Assembly (NCBI RefSeq): GCF_037414475.1
Contig: NZ_CP147913.1
Span: forward strand, 1,550,001 to 1,614,000
Reading direction: 5' to 3'
Source: Myxococcus stipitatus
GTDB lineage: Bacteria > Myxococcota > Myxococcia > Myxococcales > Myxococcaceae
DNA length: 64,000 bases
The first letter of the stretch is position 1; each line of letters opens with the position of its first letter. Of this stretch, positions 2,894 to 63,000 are shown one piece after another. Both the position numbers and the translations under genes were made by a program. The notes beneath the pieces are model-generated. The model had not been told where the DNA came from and did no database searches. It saw nothing but the letters and a program-made list of their open reading frames with translations.

Positions 2894-3703
2894 TCACGGA
2901 GCCGCCGGGCTCGCCACCTGGGCAGGCCGCGAGGCATCCCTCCGCCGAGACTCACGCAAGAAGGCAAGCACCCCCTCGCTGATGGCCTCGGCCAGCTTCT
3001 CCTGGTAGTCCCCCCGCGCCAGCCGCGCTCCCTCCTCTGGATGCGAGATGTAGCCCACCTCGACGAGCACCGCCGGGCACTCCACCCCCGAGAGCACGAA
3101 GAAGGGCGCCTGCTGCACCCCCCGGTCCGCCGCCTTCGTGCGGGCCACCAACCGGGGATGAATCGAATACGCCAACCGCGACGAATCCGCGTGCGCCTCC
3201 GTGCGCACCAGGTCCTCCAGAATCAACGCCAGCGTCGAGTCCCCTCGCGCCGCCCGAGCCACCGGCGCCTCCGCGTTCTCCCGGTCCGCCACCGCCAGCG
3301 CCGCCTCACCTGACGCATTCGCCGACAGGAAGTACGTCTCCACCCCCTCCGTCCGCGCTCGCATCCGCGGCGTGGGCATCGAGTTGGCGTGAATGGAGAT
3401 GAACAGGTCCGCGCCGTGGTCGTTCGTCATCGCCACGCGCTCCGTCAGGCTCATCAGCGAGTCCCGCTCGCGCGTCAGGTACACCTCGCCCCCGGCTGCC
3501 TCCAGCTTCGTGCGCAGCCGGTGGGCAATCTGCAGCGCCACCTCCTTCTCGCGCAGCGCCCCGGGCCCCTTGGCGCCCTCCTTGGCGCCTCCATGTCCAG
3601 GGTCGATGACGATGCGCGCGGGCCGCTCGCCGGCCTCCACGCGAACGGGGACCAGCCAGAGACACGCAACCAGGGCCAGCAGCGGACGGAGAGACAGCCT
3701 CAT
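2894..3703 (-). CDS. N-acetylmuramoyl-L-alanine amidase (Amidase_3), secreted
   Basis: 269 residues. A signal peptide is seen at residues 1-24 (MRLSLRPLLALVACLWLVPV then VEA), followed directly by the zinc amidase core. Zinc ligands and the catalytic Glu are recognisable as IVIDPGHGG (His), LREKEVAL (Glu), ISIHANS (His) and the late VLVEVGYISHPEEGARL. The family cleaves the amide between MurNAc and the stem peptide in the periplasm, usually in cell separation. There is no AMIN domain, so it is shorter than E. coli AmiC. The ATG at 3703 gives the clean signal peptide; longer upstream reading has Arg-rich non-family sequence. It lies 49 bp after selD. Confidence 0.92.
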   Translation of the reverse strand: MRLSLRPLLALVACLWLVPVRVEAGERPARIVIDPGHGGAKEGAKGPGALREKEVALQIAHRLRTKLEAAGGEVYLTRERDSLMSLTERVAMTNDHGADLFISIHANSMPTPRMRARTEGVETYFLSANASGEAALAVADRENAEAPVARAARGDSTLALILEDLVRTEAHADSSRLAYSIHPRLVARTKAADRGVQQAPFFVLSGVECPAVLVEVGYISHPEEGARLARGDYQEKLAEAISEGVLAFLRESRRRDASRPAQVASPAAP

Positions 3704-3752
3704 GCCAGGCGGAATCGTAGCGGAGCCCTCCCCCGCGCGCGAAATCCCCGCC

Positions 3753-4811
3753 TCAGCCGATGACGTCGATACCCGGCCGCCCCGCCTGGACCTCGCCGAT
3801 GAGCGCGGCGTCCACGCCCACCTTCTCCAGCGCCTTGAGCGCCTTGAGCGCATCGCGCGCGGGCACACTGGCCAGGAGACCCCCGTTCGTCTGCGCGTCC
3901 GCGAGCACCCACTGAATCGCCTCGGGTAGCCCCTGCGGGAAACGGACCTTCTTCTTCACGTGCTCCAGGTTCGACTTCGTCCCACCCGGCACCACGCCCG
4001 CATCCGCCAGCGCCGGCACGTCCGAGATGAGCGGAATGCGCTCCAGGTCCACCGCGGCCCGCGTCTTCGCGCCCGTCATCATCTCCAGCAAATGGCCCAA
4101 CAGGCCGTAGCCCGTCACGTCCGTCAGCGCGTTCACCTTGAACTTGCCGGACGCGAAGACCTCACCCGCGGCGCGGTTGAGCGTCGTCATCAACGCGATG
4201 ACCCGCTTCGACAGCTGCTTCGACGCCAGCCCCCGCTTGATGGCCGTGGTCGCGATGCCCGTGCCCAGCGGCTTGGTCAACAGCAACACGTCCCCGGGCT
4301 TCGCCCCCGCGTTGGTGAGCACCTTCTTCGGGTTCACCACACCCGTGACGGCCAGGCCGTACTTGGGCTCGGGGTCCCGGATGCTGTGGCCTCCGAGGAT
4401 GGGGATGCCCGCCTCGTCCGCCTTCGACTGGCCCCCGGCCAGAATCTTGGACAGCACGGACAGGGGCAGGCTGTCGGGGAAGCCCACCAGGTTGAGCGCG
4501 AACAGGGGCTTGGCCCCCATCGCGTAGATGTCCGACAGCGCGTTCGCCGCGGCGATGGCGCCGAACTGGAACGGGTCGTCCACCACCGGCGGGAAGAAGT
4601 CCACCGTCTCCACCACGGCGAGGCCGGGCGCCAGACGGTAGACCGCCGCGTCGTCATTCGTGTTGAAGCCCACCAGGGCCTGGGGGCCTCGGGAGGACTT
4701 CAGTCCCCCCAGGATGCGCTGCAGGTCCCCTGCCCGAAGCTTCGCCGCGCAACCCGCGCAGTGACTCAGCTCGGTGAGGCGCAGTCGCTTCACCGACTTC
4801 GCGTCCGCCAC
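3753..4811 (-). CDS. selD: Selenide, water dikinase
   Basis: 352 residues. SelD makes selenophosphate from selenide and ATP for selenocysteine and selenouridine synthesis. The N-terminal active-site loop reads LSHCAGCAAKL. Compared with E. coli SHGAGCGCK, the essential Cys17 and Lys20 equivalents are kept, while the Gly14 position is Cys and the Cys19 position is Ala. Further motifs are NTNDDAAVYRL, VETVDFFPPVVDDP, AANALSDIYAMGAKP, and DVTGYGLLGHL. The GTG at 4811 is chosen because GGAGAAGGGG lies just upstream. The enzyme carries Cys, not selenocysteine, and no in-frame TGA is used. selA, selB and tRNA-Sec are not in the window. Confidence 0.94.
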   Translation of the reverse strand: MADAKSVKRLRLTELSHCAGCAAKLRAGDLQRILGGLKSSRGPQALVGFNTNDDAAVYRLAPGLAVVETVDFFPPVVDDPFQFGAIAAANALSDIYAMGAKPLFALNLVGFPDSLPLSVLSKILAGGQSKADEAGIPILGGHSIRDPEPKYGLAVTGVVNPKKVLTNAGAKPGDVLLLTKPLGTGIATTAIKRGLASKQLSKRVIALMTTLNRAAGEVFASGKFKVNALTDVTGYGLLGHLLEMMTGAKTRAAVDLERIPLISDVPALADAGVVPGGTKSNLEHVKKKVRFPQGLPEAIQWVLADAQTNGGLLASVPARDALKALKALEKVGVDAALIGEVQAGRPGIDVIG

Positions 4812-9336: not shown

Positions 9337-10051
9337 CAAGGCAGTGCGCCCGCGTAAGCTGGCTCTGCGGTGGAGTGGCTCCCCGGAAGCATGGGCCTGG
9401 ACTCATTCCTCGTCGCGGGCCCGCGCAGGCTGGTTCTGCGGTGGAGTGGCTCCCCGAAGGCATGGCCTGGACTCGTGCCTCTTCGCGGACTTGCACTCGC
9501 GGGCCCTGGGTGAGCGAACCAGACCCATGCCTCTTCGCTGGCCCGCGCGAGAGGGCTCTTCGGCGGAGTGGCTCCCCGGCGGCGTGGGCTCGACTCGTGC
9601 CTCGTCGCGGGCCTGCACTCGCCGGCCCTGGCTGAGTGCTCCCCCATGCCTCTTCGCTGGCCCGCGCGAGAGGGCTCTTCGGCGGAGTGGCTCCCCGGCG
9701 GCGTGGGCTCGACTCGTGCCTCGTCGCGGGCCTGCACTCGCCGGCCCTGGCTGAGTGCCCCCCATGACTCTTCGCTGGCCCGAGTGAGCAGCCTCTGCGG
9801 TGGAGTGGCCCCCCGGCGGCGTGGGCTGGACTTGTGCCTCGTCGCGGGCCTCAACTCGCGGGCCCCGCACCGGCAGGCATCAGGGGAGTGCGCCATCCCG
9901 TGCCTCTTCGCGGGCCCGCCCTCGCGGGCTCCCCCCTTCCCTCTTCGCGGGCCCGTGCTGAGGGCCCTGCGAGGCCATCCTTGGTGGATGCCCTCAGACC
10001 CACAGGCCGGGCGGTCTCACTTGCTCGCGAGACCAGCGCACCTCCGAACAC
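9337..10051. repeat. Degenerate tandem repeat array (~119-bp unit) between convergent genes
   Basis: There is no gene in these 715 bases. A unit anchored on CTGCGGTGGAGTGGCTCCCC, or CTTCGGCGGAGTGGCTCCCC, recurs with anchors at 9365, 9436, 9558, 9677 and 9795, followed by a very worn copy up to about 9975. The copies 9542-9660 and 9661-9779 are nearly identical at 119-bp spacing; the first step is only 71 bp. Each full unit holds two related halves built on GCCTCGTCGCGGGCCTGCACTC and GCCTCTTCGCTGGCCCGCGC. The minus strand stays open through the array, but only because the units are Arg/Ala/Pro-coding; no start, RBS or family likeness supports a protein. Confidence 0.8.
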
Positions 10052-11428
10052 TCAGAAGCGTTCGATCTGGAAGTCGTCATCCCCTCCCGCCGCTGGAGCA
10101 GGCGCGGGAGCAGGAGCCGGGCGCGCCGCGGGAGCGGGCGTCGGAGGTCGCATGGGCTGGGCCGGTGCTGGCGGACGAGCAGCAGCCGGAGCCATGGGCG
10201 CTCCGGGACGCGCGGCCTGAGGCGCGGGGGCTGGCATCGCCGGAGCGGGCGCCGCGGCTGCCGCGGGCGCCCCCTTCTGCGCGAACGAAGCGGAGCCCGG
10301 AATCGGACGGGACTCGCCGGGCTTGGCGTCGAAGTTGTCCCACTTCGAGTCCGACGTCCCGCTGATGCCAGAGAAGCGCAGCGCGAAGTCGTCCGGGTTC
10401 GTCGCCTGACGATGGGCCTCCTCGTACGTCACCAGCCCCTGCCGCACCAGGCTCATCAGCGACTGGTCGAAGGTCTGCATCCCGTACGAGTCGGTGCCCT
10501 GCGCAATCGCGTCGTGAATCTCCTTCGTCCGGTCCTTGTCCTCGATGAGCTCACGCACACGAGCAGTGACGCGCAGCACCTCCACCGCGGCCACGCGGCC
10601 CTTGCCATCCGCGCGCGGCACCAGACGCTGACTCACCACCGCCTTGAGCACACTCGCAAGCTGGATGCGTACCTGCTTCTGCTGGTGCGGAGGGAAGGCG
10701 GACACGATGCGGTTCACCGTCTCCGTCGCGTCCAGCGTGTGCAACGTGGACATCACCAGGTGGCCCGTCTCCGCGGCGTGCAGCGCCGTTTCGATGGTCT
10801 CGTGGTCTCGCATTTCGCCCACGAGGATGACATCCGGGTCCTGCCGCAGCGCGCTCTTGAGCGCCTGCGCGAAGCTCATCGTGTCCACACCCACTTCGCG
10901 CTGGTTCACGATGGAGCGCTTGTCGCGAATGAGGAACTCGATGGGGTCCTCGATGGTCATGATGTGGCTGGTCTCGTTGGAGTTGATGTGGTCGATCATC
11001 GCCGCCAACGTCGTGGACTTTCCCGAGCCCGTCGTCCCCGTCACCAGGATGAGGCCGCGCTCCTCTCCACAAATCTTCGCGAGAATCTGCGGCAGGAGCA
11101 GATCCTGGATGGTCATCACCTTGAACGGGATGACACGCAGCACCGCGCCCACCGTGCCGCGCTGCTGGAAGACGTTCACACGGAAGCGGCCCAGGCCCGG
11201 AACCCCGTACGCCAGGTCCACCTCGTTGCTCGCCTTGAACTTCTCCTTCTGGAACTCGTTCATGATGCCGAAGGACATCCGAGCCACCTCCTCAGGCGGG
11301 AGGCGACGGCCATCCTTCAACGGCACCAACGAGCCATCCACCCGGAACATGGGCGGCAGACCAGCCTTCAGATGAATGTCGGAAGCACCGCCGCGCAGGG
11401 CGATCTGGAGGATCTCATTGAGTTCCAT
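10052..11428 (-). CDS. pilT: PilT-family retraction ATPase with long Ala/Pro tail
   Basis: 458 residues; the first ~365 are a canonical PilT. They show the N-terminal PAS-like domain (GGASDIHLKAGLPPMFRVDG), Walker A VTGTTGSGKSTTLAAMID, Asp box with HIMTIEDPIEFLI, Walker B DPDVILVGEMRDHETIETAL, the His box GHLVMSTLHT, and the PilT marker AIREGK-equivalent region AIAQGTDSYGMQTFDQSL. PilT powers type IV pilus retraction at the inner-membrane base. Unusually, ~85 further residues of Ala/Pro-rich, low-complexity sequence follow, ending in acidic GDDDFQIERF. It may be one of the PilT paralogues usual in myxobacteria, since no pil cluster is nearby. Confidence 0.9.
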   Translation of the reverse strand: MELNEILQIALRGGASDIHLKAGLPPMFRVDGSLVPLKDGRRLPPEEVARMSFGIMNEFQKEKFKASNEVDLAYGVPGLGRFRVNVFQQRGTVGAVLRVIPFKVMTIQDLLLPQILAKICGEERGLILVTGTTGSGKSTTLAAMIDHINSNETSHIMTIEDPIEFLIRDKRSIVNQREVGVDTMSFAQALKSALRQDPDVILVGEMRDHETIETALHAAETGHLVMSTLHTLDATETVNRIVSAFPPHQQKQVRIQLASVLKAVVSQRLVPRADGKGRVAAVEVLRVTARVRELIEDKDRTKEIHDAIAQGTDSYGMQTFDQSLMSLVRQGLVTYEEAHRQATNPDDFALRFSGISGTSDSKWDNFDAKPGESRPIPGSASFAQKGAPAAAAAPAPAMPAPAPQAARPGAPMAPAAARPPAPAQPMRPPTPAPAARPAPAPAPAPAAGGDDDFQIERF

Positions 11429-14701: not shown

Positions 14702-15265
14702 GTGCGCGACAAATTTCTCCTCCGCCTTGCCGCCGCCGTGCTCGCGCTCGCCCCGGGTGTCGGGTGTTTGAACCAGGATGCCGCCTCCCCCGAGGTGGCG
14801 ACGTCCGTTCCCGCCTCCAGTGCGCCTTGCGTCTACTTCAAGTCGCTGGCCCCGTTCCTGCCCGAGTCCCTGGAGGGCTTCGCCGTGGCCCGCACCCAGG
14901 GGTCCACCGGAAAGTACGGTGAGGTGTCCGTCTCCGAAGCCGAGCGCCTGTTCACCCGAGGTGAGGGGCGAGAGGTCAAGGTGCGCATCGTGGACACCAC
15001 GATGGGCGGGAAGATTGGACAGGCCATCCGCGACGCGGCGGAGCGCGCCAAGGGCCGAGCTCCCAGCGACCCGACGGCGCCCATCCACTGGCAGGATGCG
15101 GTGGGCTTCGTGAGGTACGACGCGGACGAGGCGCTGGCCGAAGCCAACCTCCTGGTGGGGGAGCGCTTCGTGGTGGCCATCACCAGCCGAGGCTTCCCCG
15201 GCACGGTGGAGGTGCGGCGGGTGGCGCGAGGAATCGACCTGGCTGGGTTGGCCAAGCTTCAGTGA
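14702..15265 (+). CDS. Putative lipoprotein, unknown function
   Basis: 187 residues. GTG at 14702 yields a signal sequence with hydrophobic LLRLAAAVLALAPGVGC, with the lipidation Cys at about residue 22. The mature part contains PFLPESLEGFAVARTQGSTG and KVRIVDTTMGGKIGQAIRDA, a pattern of beta strands and a helix. I do not recognise a domain. Its stop overlaps or abuts the Cys-rich gene downstream, with only 29 bp to that gene's best start, so the two are probably one operon. Export and outer-membrane or periplasmic location are inferred. Confidence 0.78.
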   Translation: MRDKFLLRLAAAVLALAPGVGCLNQDAASPEVATSVPASSAPCVYFKSLAPFLPESLEGFAVARTQGSTGKYGEVSVSEAERLFTRGEGREVKVRIVDTTMGGKIGQAIRDAAERAKGRAPSDPTAPIHWQDAVGFVRYDADEALAEANLLVGERFVVAITSRGFPGTVEVRRVARGIDLAGLAKLQ

Positions 15266-15294
15266 GCCCCGAACGAGGGCAAGGAGTGTCCCGG

Positions 15295-15792
15295 GTGGCG
15301 AAGGAGAAAGTGGCGCGGGCCGAGGCGGAAGATCCGCTCGCCGCGGAGAAGGCGGCACGCGAGCTGGTGGCCGCGCTGGGCAAGCGTGAGTTCCTGGAGC
15401 AGCTCCAGCGGCTCACCAAGAGCTACGCATCGGACCCGGGCAACCCCGGCTCCTATGCGTGCGAGGGCTGTCAGCGCTGTGCCAACTGCATGTTCTGCAA
15501 GGAGTGCGACAGCTGCTTCCAATGCACCCACTGCACCCGGTGCGAGCTGTGCAACAACTGCTCGCACTGCGTGGACTGCAAGAGCTGTCACGCGTGCGCC
15601 TACTGCACGCAGAGCGAGAACTGCACCACCAGCGCCTACCTGGTGATGTGCCGCAACCTCCAGGACTGCAACTACTGCTTCGGCTGCGTGGGGTTGGCGA
15701 AGAAGGACTTCCACATCCTCAACGTCCCCTTCTCGCGGACCGAGTACTTCAAGGTCGTGGGCAGGCTGCGCAAGGAGCTGGGCCTGTCCTGA
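15295..15792 (+). CDS. Cys-x-x tandem repeat protein, unknown function
   Basis: 165 residues. An N-terminal Ala/Glu/Lys-rich helix (about 1-45, AAEKAARELVAALGKREFLE) precedes a run (about 57-105) in which every third residue is Cys. The order is CEG CQR CAN CMF CKE CDS, then ten further triplets and a closing Cys, 17 in register. Five more Cys follow (SENC, LVMC, LQDC, NYC, GC), then a normal tail FSRTEYFKVVGRLRKELGLS. There is no signal peptide. GTG 15295 is chosen because AGGAG stands 8 nt upstream; GTG at 15262, which overlaps the lipoprotein stop, is an alternative. A metal-cluster or beta-helical structure is plausible. No catalytic family is recognised. Confidence 0.85.
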   Translation: MAKEKVARAEAEDPLAAEKAARELVAALGKREFLEQLQRLTKSYASDPGNPGSYACEGCQRCANCMFCKECDSCFQCTHCTRCELCNNCSHCVDCKSCHACAYCTQSENCTTSAYLVMCRNLQDCNYCFGCVGLAKKDFHILNVPFSRTEYFKVVGRLRKELGLS

Positions 15793-15807: not shown

Positions 15808-15829
15808 GTGCGCGCTACAAGGCGCGCAC
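15808..15829. terminator. Bidirectional terminator hairpin between convergent genes
   Basis: GTGCGCGC at 15808-15815 and GCGCGCAC at 15822-15829 form a perfect 8-bp stem around TACAAG. It lies 16 bp past the Cys-rich gene and overlaps the stop codon of the convergent methyltransferase gene. Confidence 0.6.
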
Positions 15830-17011
15830 GTAGAGGGCCTTGAGGTACTCCGTCTCCGGCAGACCCGCGAGGACGGGGTGGTCCAACCCCGCGCCCCGGC
15901 GCTCCAGAATCTGCACCGGGCGCTTCGCGTCCGTGGCGGCGGCGAGCACCATCTCCTCGAAGCCCGCGCGGTCCAGCTTGCCCGAGCAGGAGCAGGTGAC
16001 GAGCAGCCCGTCCGGCTTCAGGCAGCGGAACGCGCGCAGGTTGAGCTCGTGGTAGGCGCGCAGCGCGGTGGCCAGGCCCTCGCGGCGCTTGGCCAACCCC
16101 GGCGGGTCCAACACGATGGTGTCGAAGCGCTGGCCTTCCGTGTCGAAGCGGCGCAGCACGTCGAACGCGTTCGCGTGCTCCACGCGGACGTTGTCCCGGC
16201 GGTTGGCGCGGGCGTTCTCCTGAGCGCGCGAGGCGGCCTTCTCGTCCTGCTCCACCGCGACCACCGAGGCGCAGTTGCGCGACAGGGCCAGCGCGAAACC
16301 TCCGTGGTAGCTGAAGAGGTCCAGCGCCTCGCCTCGCGCCAGCTCTCCGGCGCGCAGGTGGTTGTCCACCTGGTCCAGGAAGGCGCCCGTCTTCATGTCG
16401 CCCAGCAGGTCGACTTCGAAGCGGTTCTCCCCCTCGTGGTAGGCGAAGCGTGCCTCGCCCTGGCCGTGCAGGAGGCGGGACTCACGCGTCAGGCCCTCGA
16501 AGTCGCGGCCCGAGGCGTCGTCCCGGCACACCACATGGGTGGCGCCGGTGAGCTCCACCAGCATCTTCGCGAGCGACTCCTTGCGTGCGTCCATGCCCTC
16601 GGAGAGCGTCTGGAGGGTGAGGCCAGAGCCGTAGCGGTCGACGAAGAGGCCAGGCAGCAGATCCGCTTCCCCGTGCACCAGCCGCAGACCGTCCCTGTGG
16701 GACAGCGTCGCGCGACGGGCGAGGGCTGCCTCCAGGCGGCGGCGGAAGAAGGCATCGTTCACCGGCTCCTCGGCGGGGCCCTTGCGCGTGATGAGGCGCA
16801 AGGCCAGCGGGGAGCGCCGGGCGTAGAGGGCCTGACCGATGGGGTTGCCTTGCGAGTCCACGACCAGCACCACCGCTCCGGGCCCCTTCACGTCGGGCGG
16901 TGCGGCGAGCTCGGTGCGGTACAGCCAGGGGTTGCCTCGGCGCAGGGACTTCGCGCCCTTCGGGGTGGTGCGTGCGACGGGCAGGGCTGCTGGGGGGGCC
17001 ATGTGCTTCAC
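15815..17011 (-). CDS. RlmI-type 23S rRNA (cytosine-5) methyltransferase
   Basis: 398 residues. The N-terminal PUA-like domain (KGAKSLRRGNPWLYRTEL) is followed by a small middle domain, then a Rossmann SAM-binding domain with LDLFSYHGGFALALS, VVAVEQDEKAASRAQENAR, DTIVLDPPGLAKRR and TCSCSGKLDR. The Cys after VT is where RlmI places its catalytic cysteine. E. coli RlmI methylates C1962 of 23S rRNA, and this protein matches in size and domain order. The GTG at 17011 overlaps the stop of the upstream gene; ATG 17002 is possible. Exact target base is inferred. Confidence 0.88.
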   Translation of the reverse strand: MKHMAPPAALPVARTTPKGAKSLRRGNPWLYRTELAAPPDVKGPGAVVLVVDSQGNPIGQALYARRSPLALRLITRKGPAEEPVNDAFFRRRLEAALARRATLSHRDGLRLVHGEADLLPGLFVDRYGSGLTLQTLSEGMDARKESLAKMLVELTGATHVVCRDDASGRDFEGLTRESRLLHGQGEARFAYHEGENRFEVDLLGDMKTGAFLDQVDNHLRAGELARGEALDLFSYHGGFALALSRNCASVVAVEQDEKAASRAQENARANRRDNVRVEHANAFDVLRRFDTEGQRFDTIVLDPPGLAKRREGLATALRAYHELNLRAFRCLKPDGLLVTCSCSGKLDRAGFEEMVLAAATDAKRPVQILERRGAGLDHPVLAGLPETEYLKALYVRAL

Positions 17012-60057: not shown

Positions 60058-63000
60058 ATGAAAGTCTCCTGCCCGTCTTGCCAGACGAACTACAACATCG
60101 ATGACAAGCGGATCCCTCCGGGAGGCGCGAAGCTCAAGTGCGCCCGGTGCCAGACCACCTTCCCCATCAAACCCGAGGGCGTGAGCGCGCCAGCCCCCGC
60201 CGCGCCTCCTCCTCCCGGCGCCATTCCCCTCCCGGGACAGGCCGCGGCCCCCGCCGCGATTCCGCTCCCTGGCGCCGCGCCTTCCGCCACCGCCGCGATT
60301 CCGCTTCCAGGTGCCGCGCCCTCGCCCTCCGCGGCGATTCCCCTGCCGGGTAGCGCACCGTCGGGCGCCATCGCCATGGGAGCCGGCCCGCAGGCCATTC
60401 CCCTCCCCGGCGCGTCCGCCTTCGACGGCGGCGCGATTCCGCTTCCTGGCGCGGCGGCCCCATCCGACAGCTTCGGCTTCGGCTCCGGCGCCATCCCGCT
60501 TCCGGGCGCCGCGCCCCAAGCGTCGGGCTTCGGACAGGGCGCCGGGGCCATTCCGCTTCCGGGCGCCGCGCCCTCGGGTGCCATCGCCATGGGGGCCGGT
60601 CCCGCCGCCATTCCCCTTCCCGGCGCGGCGGCCCCCTTCGACTCCGGCGCAATCCCTCTTCCGGGCGCCTCGGACTCCTTCGGAGAGGGCTTCGATGACG
60701 TGGAGGCGCCCGCTCTCGAGAACCGGGACGTCACGCGCGTCGTGGCCATCCCACTGCCCAACGCCGCGTATCGCGAGCAGGCCGCCACGGCGCCCCCGAG
60801 CTCGGCGCGCGACTTCGACTTCTCCGACGATGCACTGGCGCCGCCGGCGGATGCCTCCCCGTCGGCGTATGGCGCTCCGGACGTGACCGGCACCGCGCGC
60901 GACTTCGACTTCTCCGAGGCAGAGCTCCCGGTCCCCGCCCAGCCCGAGCCGGACCCCTTCGCCTTCGACGTCGAGACCTCGAGCGGTGAGGCCCCCTCCT
61001 TCGCGCTGCCGCCCACCCCCAACCCCGGGCAGGGCGCCTTCCCAGTCGAGGACAACCCCTTCGCGCTGCCGCCGCCTCCCGCGTACGCGCAGCAGCCCGC
61101 GACGGACGACCCCTTCGCGCTTCCTCCTCCGCCCGAGGACAATCCCTTCGCGCTGCCGCCGCCTCCCGCCTACGCGCAGCAGCCCGCGATGGACGACCCC
61201 TTCGCGCTTCCTCCTCCGCCCGAGGACAACCCCTTCGCGCTTCCGCCGCCTCCTTCCTACGCGCAGCAGCCCGCGACGGATGACCCCTTCGCGCTTCCCC
61301 CTCCACCCGAGGACAACCCCTTCGTGCTGCCGCCGCCGCCCGCCTACGCACAGCCCGGGGCGGACGACGCCTTCGCCTTGCCGCCGCCGCCCGCTGGAGG
61401 CCCCTCGTTCGACTTCGGTGAGCTCCCCTCTCCGGTGGATCCATTCTCGGCGGCACCGCCTCCGGCGGGCGCGATGGACTTCTCGGACCTGCCGTCTCCC
61501 GCCGCTCCGGCGATGGACTTCTCGGACCTGCCGTCCCCCGCGCAGGGCGGGTCGTTCGACTTCGCCGCGCCCCCGCCACCGGCGCCGATGCCGGACTTCA
61601 GCCTCGACTTCGCCGACCCGGCACCGCCGCCCGCCGCATCGCCTCCGCCCGCGTCCTTCAACCCCTCGATGGACTTTGGCGACGTGGACTTCGGTTCGCC
61701 GGCTCCCGCGCCCGCGCCGGGCATCCCCGACTCGCTCGAGTTCGACCCCACCGCGCGCCCCGCGGATGACCTGGAAGCGGACCTCTCGGATCCGCTCCCG
61801 CCTCCGCCCAACGCGGGCCCCGCGGATGGTCTGGAGATGTTGTCGTTCATCGACGACGCGGCCAGCCGGGATGGAGGCGCGCAGGCGGGCGCCAAGGTGC
61901 GGCGCTTCCACGTCCGCCGCCGCTCGGGCAAGGTGTTCGGCCCGTTCGACGAGGGCGTCGTCGTCAAGATGCTCGAGGATGGGCAGCTGCTGGGCAACGA
62001 GGACGTCTCGCTGGATTCGGAGTCGTGGTCGGCCATCGGCACCATCCCCACCTTCGCCGCCGCCATCCAGCGGCTGATGGAGGGCCCGGCCAAGGTCGTC
62101 GCGGCGGCGCCCGTCGCCGTGGCGGCGGACGCGGAAGCCCCTCACGCCGACGGGAGCGGCACGCAGGCGAACATGCGCCGCCTGGAGCAGCTCTATGAAG
62201 GCCGCATGGCGGCGGTCTCCGTGGTGGACCGCAGCGGCGCTAACGAGAAGCTCAAGAAGCGCATCCCCTTGTTCATCGCCGCGGGCGTCGCCGTGGTGGT
62301 GATGATCGTCGGCGCGGGGACGGAGTTCGGCACGCGCTACGGTGCCTTTGGCCGCCGGGCCCTGTTCCCAGCGCGTGTCTCGGACGGCTCGCCCGACGCG
62401 CAGCTCGTGACGCAGGCGAAGCAGGCGCTCCTCCAGGACACATTCGGCAGCTACCAGCAGGCGCAGACCCTCGCCGCCCAGGTGCTTCAGCAGAAGGAAT
62501 ACCCGGCGGTCCGGTCGCTGTGGTGCCAGTCCGTCGCCTACCTGCAGCGCAAGTACTCCGCGGCGCCGGTGGCCGACATGGCGCGCTGCCGCGAGGCCCT
62601 GCCGGACATCGCGTTGCTGGGCGAGAAGGACGTGGACTTCATCAAGGTCAGTGCGGCGCTGTCCCTCACTGCCCGGCAGGCGGACGCGGCGCTGGTCCCC
62701 TTGATGGACGCGTTCAGCCGCGAGGGGAATCAGGGCGACCTGGAGCTGGCCTTCCTGGTGGCCGAAGCGCAGACCATGAAGCGTGAACGGGACGCCGCCA
62801 TCGAGACCCTGAAGAAGGTACTCGCGGTGGACCCGAAGTCCGCCAAGGCCCACCACGCGATGGGCAACCTGCACCAGTCCGCGGGCCGCGCGGACGAGGC
62901 CGCGGCCTCGTACACCGCCGCGCTCGAAGCGGACCGCAAGCACGCCTCCTCCGCCGTGGAGCTCGCCGCCGTGCAGCTCCTGGTCCGCAAGGACGTGGAG

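Follow-up and report, generated by a model that had tools for sequence, protein, structure and literature searches.

A Cysteine-Ladder Protein Conserved across the Myxococcota Is Predicted to Form a Twelve-Residue Beta-Solenoid

A gene in the window, by which we mean the whole 64,000-nucleotide stretch of Myxococcus stipitatus DNA analyzed here, encodes a small protein in which cysteine recurs at every third position over much of its length. Judging from predicted structures, this ladder very probably constitutes the packed core of a tiny right-handed beta-solenoid with 12 residues per coil, sharing the architecture of beetle antifreeze proteins; we read it so because the ladder follows a 12-residue repeat and because both predicted models match the Tenebrio molitor antifreeze protein best. 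The explanation that we favor as a whole, a cysteine-packed, reduced, cytosolic beta-helix rod with a partner-docking tail, has in our estimate about an even chance (roughly 0.5) of being correct. If it is, reduced thiols can make up the core of the smallest beta-solenoid, and this fold can serve ends other than binding ice. The 12-residue Tenebrio-type beta-helix is known from beetle antifreeze proteins; here it would be old, mostly single-copy, probably cytosolic and spread throughout a bacterial phylum.

The Gene and Its Distribution

The gene occupies positions 15295..15792 of the + strand and encodes 165 amino acids between a GTG start and a TGA stop, an assignment supported by the open reading frame, by orthologues and by substitution bias. 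A likely ribosome-binding site, AAGGAG (15281..15286, +), can be read directly 8 nt before the GTG. A preliminary description of the sequence had reported 17 cysteines in strict C-x-x spacing, followed by an ordinary C-terminal part. The 17 consecutive pure triplets are indeed present (15460..15606, +; Cys 56–104 in protein numbering), but as an account of the layout this is an undercount. Past the 17th cysteine the same spacing continues as S-C-S-L-C-L-C-C-C-L, so that the protein's 22 cysteines all share one residue class modulo 3, with none out of register. Nor is the C-terminal part wholly ordinary: the ladder extends into it for 30 residues, and the tail that follows is the best-conserved segment of the family. 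Runs of at least eight in-frame C-x-x triplets occur in this reading frame only, over both strands of the 10.3-Mb genome, where a reversed-pattern control returned zero matches.

Of the 195 Myxococcota genomes searched, 132 carry an orthologue, almost always in a single copy. The 74 named loci retrieved come from Myxococcus, Corallococcus, Archangium, Anaeromyxobacter, Minicystis, Labilithrix and others, the relatives of the genome being Myxococcus and its kin. An alignment of 62 relatives (A1) underlies the family statistics, with 36 representatives used for some of the column counts. The gene tree is broadly taxonomic, with long-branched rows placed uncertainly, and this agreement with taxonomy suggests that the gene is old and vertically inherited. 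One locus, labeled Comamonas sp. KCTC 72670, is Myxococcus-like and encodes a protein with 83% identity to that of the window; its label or sample looks wrong.

Substitutions within the genus fall mostly at the third codon position (for example 7, 5 and 27 at positions 1, 2 and 3), and within the pure ladder the corresponding counts are 0, 0 and 8. This bias, together with the orthologues in 132 of 195 genomes, establishes a real gene that is conserved across the phylum. A C-x-x run can also arise as the shadow of another coding repeat, and such shadow frames do occur: two matches to the phage protein family phrog_15341 (L112 and L114) are low-complexity frames of the CHPCHPC type. For the present gene the chance of such an origin is practically negligible, as the non-repeat ends are also conserved phylum-wide, the third-position bias holds inside the ladder itself and the ribosome-binding site is plausible. 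The L112 and L114 frames, long open frames with CHPCRPC-type repeats, have neither the conservation nor the substitution properties of the cysteine-ladder gene and constitute a trap for searches of this kind; phrog_15341 was accordingly discarded as a genome-wide probe, since it yields these shadow frames.

Pfam, NCBIfam and PADLOC return zero families for the window protein, and our literature search on the cysteine-ladder family found no paper. The earlier statement that no characterized family has this layout thus stands for these three collections, but phrog_15341, a phage family of unknown function, shares the ladder. Stray Pfam matches to TnsE_C, Anamorsin_N and a RING-like family, each to a single alignment member, were discarded. 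No relatives were found on plasmids, and none were confirmed in viral contigs when sought via the conserved tail; the sole viral match to the tail pattern (L110) is a chance occurrence in an unrelated frame. Patescibacteria probably have ladder proteins too, with a comparable FGCVGL tail.

Architecture and Predicted Fold

The protein opens with charged helices (15334..15432, +; model residues 3–15 and 19–35), as assigned by DSSP on the AlphaFold model and from alignments A1 and A2. Phylum-wide conservation is seen in the second of these, around REFLEQLQRL, and not in the first. Next comes the predicted beta-solenoid of about seven 12-residue coils (15451..15696, +; A1 residues 42–123), delimited by phase pattern, pLDDT and VIA-align and presenting an inward residue at every third position. 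Coil by coil, the inward residues of the window protein are CCCC, CCCC, CCCC, CCCC, CSCS and LCLC, then C-C-L. One outward aromatic or histidine residue per coil forms a second ladder (15493..15675, +), consisting of F56, H68, H80, Y92, Y104 and Y116 in A1 numbering. The C-terminal module AKKDFHILNVPFSRTEYFKVVGRLRKELGLS (15697..15789, +), defined by its conservation in A1, is modeled with low to moderate confidence (pLDDT 54–75); K126, D127, F128, I130, L131, N132, F141 and L147 are invariant in A1, and residues 137–150 form a helix in the second model described below. The outward ladder and this module (Y116-C-F-G-C-V-G-L, K-K-D-F-H-I-L-N, F141 and L147) are the most conserved parts of the family in A1.

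Direct reading of the N-terminus, MAKEKVARAEAEDPLAAEKAAREL, reveals no hydrophobic stretch, which agrees, at the level of sequence reading, with the earlier remark that no signal peptide is evident. No export signal can be recognized, and the protein is probably cytosolic.

Across the 62 relatives, the triplets of the ladder combine into a repeat of 12 residues. The inward residue is Cys in 76% of cases at phases 9 and 3 (A1 numbering modulo 12), with Leu next (15–17%), and at phases 0 and 6 it is Cys in 65–72%, with Ser next (26–33%). Shuffling of columns assigns this alternation of C-or-L with C-or-S a p value of about 0.001. Phase 8 carries an aromatic residue or histidine (Phe, Tyr, His) in 97–100% of the 36 representatives through six consecutive coils, which is more than a period of 3 alone would give. 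The register itself is strict, with a single off-register cysteine among the 3348 ladder cells of the 62 relatives.

Structure prediction points in the same direction. AlphaFold, run on A1 for the window protein, returns a ladder of beta-strands with pLDDT block means of 87–97 over residues 41–120, the tail being less certain than the ladder. We applied VIA-align to the PDB chains ranked highest by Foldseek, and the best match of the window model is the Tenebrio molitor antifreeze protein 1EZG (Z 11.2, 2.5 Å, 81 of 82 residues), the next unrelated entry reaching Z 6.2. The second model was built for a 13-cysteine relative (L086) from an alignment, A2, that leaves out the Myxococcaceae. There 1EZG ranks first again over 82 of 82 residues, with the next entry at 5.7, at a Z of 7.3 that according to VIA-align's own note lies within the range that can mean mere common arrangement; confidence is lower, with a mean pLDDT of 77.8. 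The agreement of the two models is to be read in the light of their overlapping alignments and of the chance that AlphaFold has learned 1EZG. Foldseek alone gave zero matches at E below 0.001 for either model against the PDB. Sequence comparison with the family profile also places 1EZG first (E 0.003 and 0.001), values inflated by cysteine composition, for which the bias is 35 bits and the score 20. The phmmer and profile alignments to 1EZG lie half a coil apart, so that the register between the two proteins is fixed only modulo six residues. The preliminary description had offered a ladder, beta-helical or polyproline-II-like, as one of two options, and the 12-residue repeat together with two AlphaFold models that match 1EZG best supports its beta-helical form.

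Role of the Cysteines

The other option, which the preliminary description preferred, was a chain of metal or Fe-S sites. In its present form this explanation would have the protein store, buffer or detoxify soft metals (Cu(I), Zn, Cd, Ag), bound as a row of ions or as clusters along a thiol-lined bore. The window protein, with four successive CCCC coils and 22 cysteines in 165 residues, lends itself to such a reading, as do the probable cytosolic location and the at least 13 cysteines that even the most substituted member listed retains. Family-wide, however, the proposal goes unsupported. Apart from C51 and C117, few columns of A1 are near-invariant cysteine, and the residue is replaceable nearly everywhere, most ladder cysteines being swapped individually for Ser or Leu. 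No coil is CCCC in every member, and 7 of the 62 members have no all-cysteine coil at all. Leu as well as Ser takes the place of cysteine, and which of the two does so depends on the place in the coil, a pattern more in keeping with packing than with the loss of ligands. No conserved set of cysteine ligands of the kind seen in metallothioneins and metal-thiolate proteins was found among the 62 members, no metal genes were noticed among the conserved neighbors, and no metal-binding Pfam family is matched. We therefore regard a metal chain as an unlikely function.

Disulfides offer another way of using the same residues. Cysteines at phases 9 and 3 could pair across the core and zip up the rod. 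The bonds might be constitutive, or they might form on oxidation and act as a redox switch that makes the rod stiffer. Five coils of the window protein have both cysteines of the pair that is bonded in the Tenebrio protein TmAFP (C45–C51, C57–C63, C69–C75, C81–C87 and C93–C99), and the sixth has Leu at both phases. If such bonds were general, the two partners should tend to disappear together, but one-sided loss of a pair occurs at the level of chance among the 36 representatives (62 seen, 60.7 expected). Moreover, no signal peptide was seen and the cytosol is normally reducing, so that a disulfide-zipped rod also appears improbable. Taken together, the exchange of single cysteines for Ser or Leu and the lack of co-loss between disulfide partners make an obligatory metal chain or disulfide set unlikely as the function of the family as a whole, as far as its sequences can tell.

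A third alternative treats the protein as a general store of thiols or a sacrificial redox buffer, for which only the count of cysteines would be important and not where they stand. The count is high and variable (13 to about 22 in A1), as such a role would allow. The nearly perfect register already described is at odds with it, the thiols are predicted to be buried, and the tail and the aromatic ladder are more conserved than the cysteine count; we consider this alternative very unlikely.

The pattern of replacement can be best explained by packing of a narrow core, which we hold to be the probable role of the cysteines. The only coupling seen, between phase 6 and the following phase 9, where 34 mismatched combinations are observed against 49.9 expected and Ser plus Leu exchanges for Cys plus Cys, fits such packing. 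Under normal conditions, the thiols most likely stay for the greater part reduced in the cytosol. The Myxococcaceae branch, with its four all-cysteine coils, could have gained a further use of cysteine. Its members contain up to 22, more than packing alone obviously needs. Conceivably, though with rather low probability, the all-cysteine coils of this branch form a continuous thiol bore that acts as a unit, either as a thiolate wire for soft metals or as a zipper that forms stacked disulfides on oxidation and so switches the rod and its docking module on or off.

Gene Neighborhood

In the Myxococcaceae loci, the cysteine-ladder gene follows a gene for a lipoprotein-like protein, with uvrD to one side and a gene for an RlmI-like methyltransferase to the other. 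In the window, the upstream gene (14702..15265, +), whose product has a lipoprotein-like N-terminus and whose start is uncertain, ends 29 nt before the GTG; it is a conserved neighbor in Myxococcaceae and belongs to no Pfam family. The convergent gene downstream (15815..17011, −) encodes PUA and SAM-methyltransferase domains, is RlmI-like and is a neighbor only. The surroundings change in 19 Polyangia-type loci (L081–L103, for example L091:6421–6876), where the gene directly downstream, in the same orientation and with a median offset of 3 nt, encodes a D-aminoacyl-tRNA deacylase (PF02580). The two genes apparently form an operon there, which is not seen in the Myxococcaceae loci. In two other loci the cysteine-ladder gene precedes a gene for a TPR protein. 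The neighborhood thus differs between lineages, and no conserved functional neighbor points to a role.

Elsewhere in the window, tandem repeats of about 71, 119 and 241 bp occupy 9348–9865 and adjoin a gene at 10052–11428, and an 87-bp tandem repeat with four copies at 89% match lies at 61047–61393; its unit would be proline-rich if coding.

Proposed Function

We propose that every third residue of the coil faces a bore so narrow that most side chains would not fit. Cysteine would be the default filler at all four inward corners; one opposite pair of corners would also admit Leu or Val and the remaining pair Ser, and the thiols would serve as packing rather than as ligands. The N-terminal helix would cap one end of the rod. 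The flat face with its stacked aromatic and histidine ladder would occupy the place of the beetle protein's ice-binding threonines, within the half-coil uncertainty of the register. At the other end, the invariant tail (KKDFHILNxPYxRxEYF) would dock a partner, and the rod would act as a passive binding scaffold.

The conserved aromatic/histidine ladder and tail indicate a binding rod rather than an enzyme. That the protein is a partner-binding rod nevertheless remains a tentative proposal drawn from conservation, somewhat short of even odds, and our confidence in the functional assignment overall is low. Acidic DNA mimicry of the MfpA kind was also considered; the charge of the solenoid, about −4 to +2, does not support it.

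An ice-binding antifreeze protein homologous to TmAFP is the function that the structural match itself would suggest, given that the coil length and the inward pattern are alike and that 1EZG is the best match in both structure and sequence. The surface required for it is missing. Threonine on both sides of an inward residue reaches 3% at one position and is 0 elsewhere, and the equivalent face is aromatic or histidine. In addition, no export signal is seen, and the protein occurs across mesophilic soil genera. An antifreeze role is therefore extremely unlikely.

The family is well bounded and its tail is strikingly conserved, which suits it for structure work and for a knock-out in a genetically tractable myxobacterium.

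Comparison with Known Systems

Ladders in the same C-x-x register, of comparable or greater length, are found in phrog_15341, the family formed by cysteine-ladder proteins of Campylobacter phages (CP220 gp032, CP21, IBB_35 and others). The window protein matches the phrog_15341 model with an E value of 3.2e-9, over positions 49–133 of its 276 only and with help from cysteine composition, and the structural matches to viral proteins include one from IBB35 (E 5.7e-5). The phage proteins, for which 17 phage records match, are up to 284 amino acids long and often occur twice per genome (for example L105:1887–2258; L108:2418–2936 and 3001–3855; L117:1201–1752). In CP220 and IBB_35 the ladder genes adjoin portal and DNA ligase genes. 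The likeness ends with the ladder: the phage proteins share an N-terminal segment of their own (MKLIDGYYVDSNNNKW...) and have no KKDFHILN module, whereas the window protein has no phage segment. A hypothetical protein of Flavobacterium phage FL-1 (L116:1201–1585) consists almost wholly of C-S-D, C-S-G and C-F-R triplets. The best viral structural match, to a predicted model, is A0A5B8IEK9 of Mimiviridae sp. ChoanoV1, annotated as "TNFR-Cys domain-containing" (E 3.8e-7, 30% identity over 125 columns).

Pentapeptide-repeat proteins such as MfpA, Qnr and EfsQnr are also small cytosolic right-handed beta-helices and give weak structural matches (Z 4.4–5.0). Their coils, however, comprise 20 residues, as opposed to 12 in triplets here, and neither the window protein nor any of the 62 members, with their period of 3 and 12, has a Pfam pentapeptide match.

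The closest comparison is with TmAFP itself (1EZG; TCTxSxNCxxAx). In each of its 12-residue coils, residues 2, 5, 8 and 11 point inward as C, S, C and A, with disulfides between residues 2 and 8 (PMC8038014). In its predicted fold the window protein shares with TmAFP the coil length and the inward orientation of every third residue, and in both, opposite inward residues are of the same type, C/C and S/A in TmAFP and C-or-L and C-or-S here. Five coils of the window protein carry a cysteine pair at the positions of the C2–C8 disulfide; across the family the partners are not lost together. The differences are equally distinct. TmAFP is secreted with a signal peptide and displays a TxT ice-binding face; the window protein has no visible export signal and carries the aromatic/histidine ladder instead, with TxT at 0–3% at every phase. 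It also has up to four cysteines per coil, and an N-terminal helix and the conserved C-terminal module are added. According to a 2021 paper, the Tenebrio-type repeat had not been identified in bacterial antifreeze proteins (PMC8038014). On the sequences compared, convergence with the beetle proteins appears as likely as common ancestry. The predicted fold is thus of a known kind, but its setting is new: bacterial, probably cytosolic and cysteine-cored, with the ice-binding face replaced by a ladder of aromatic residues.
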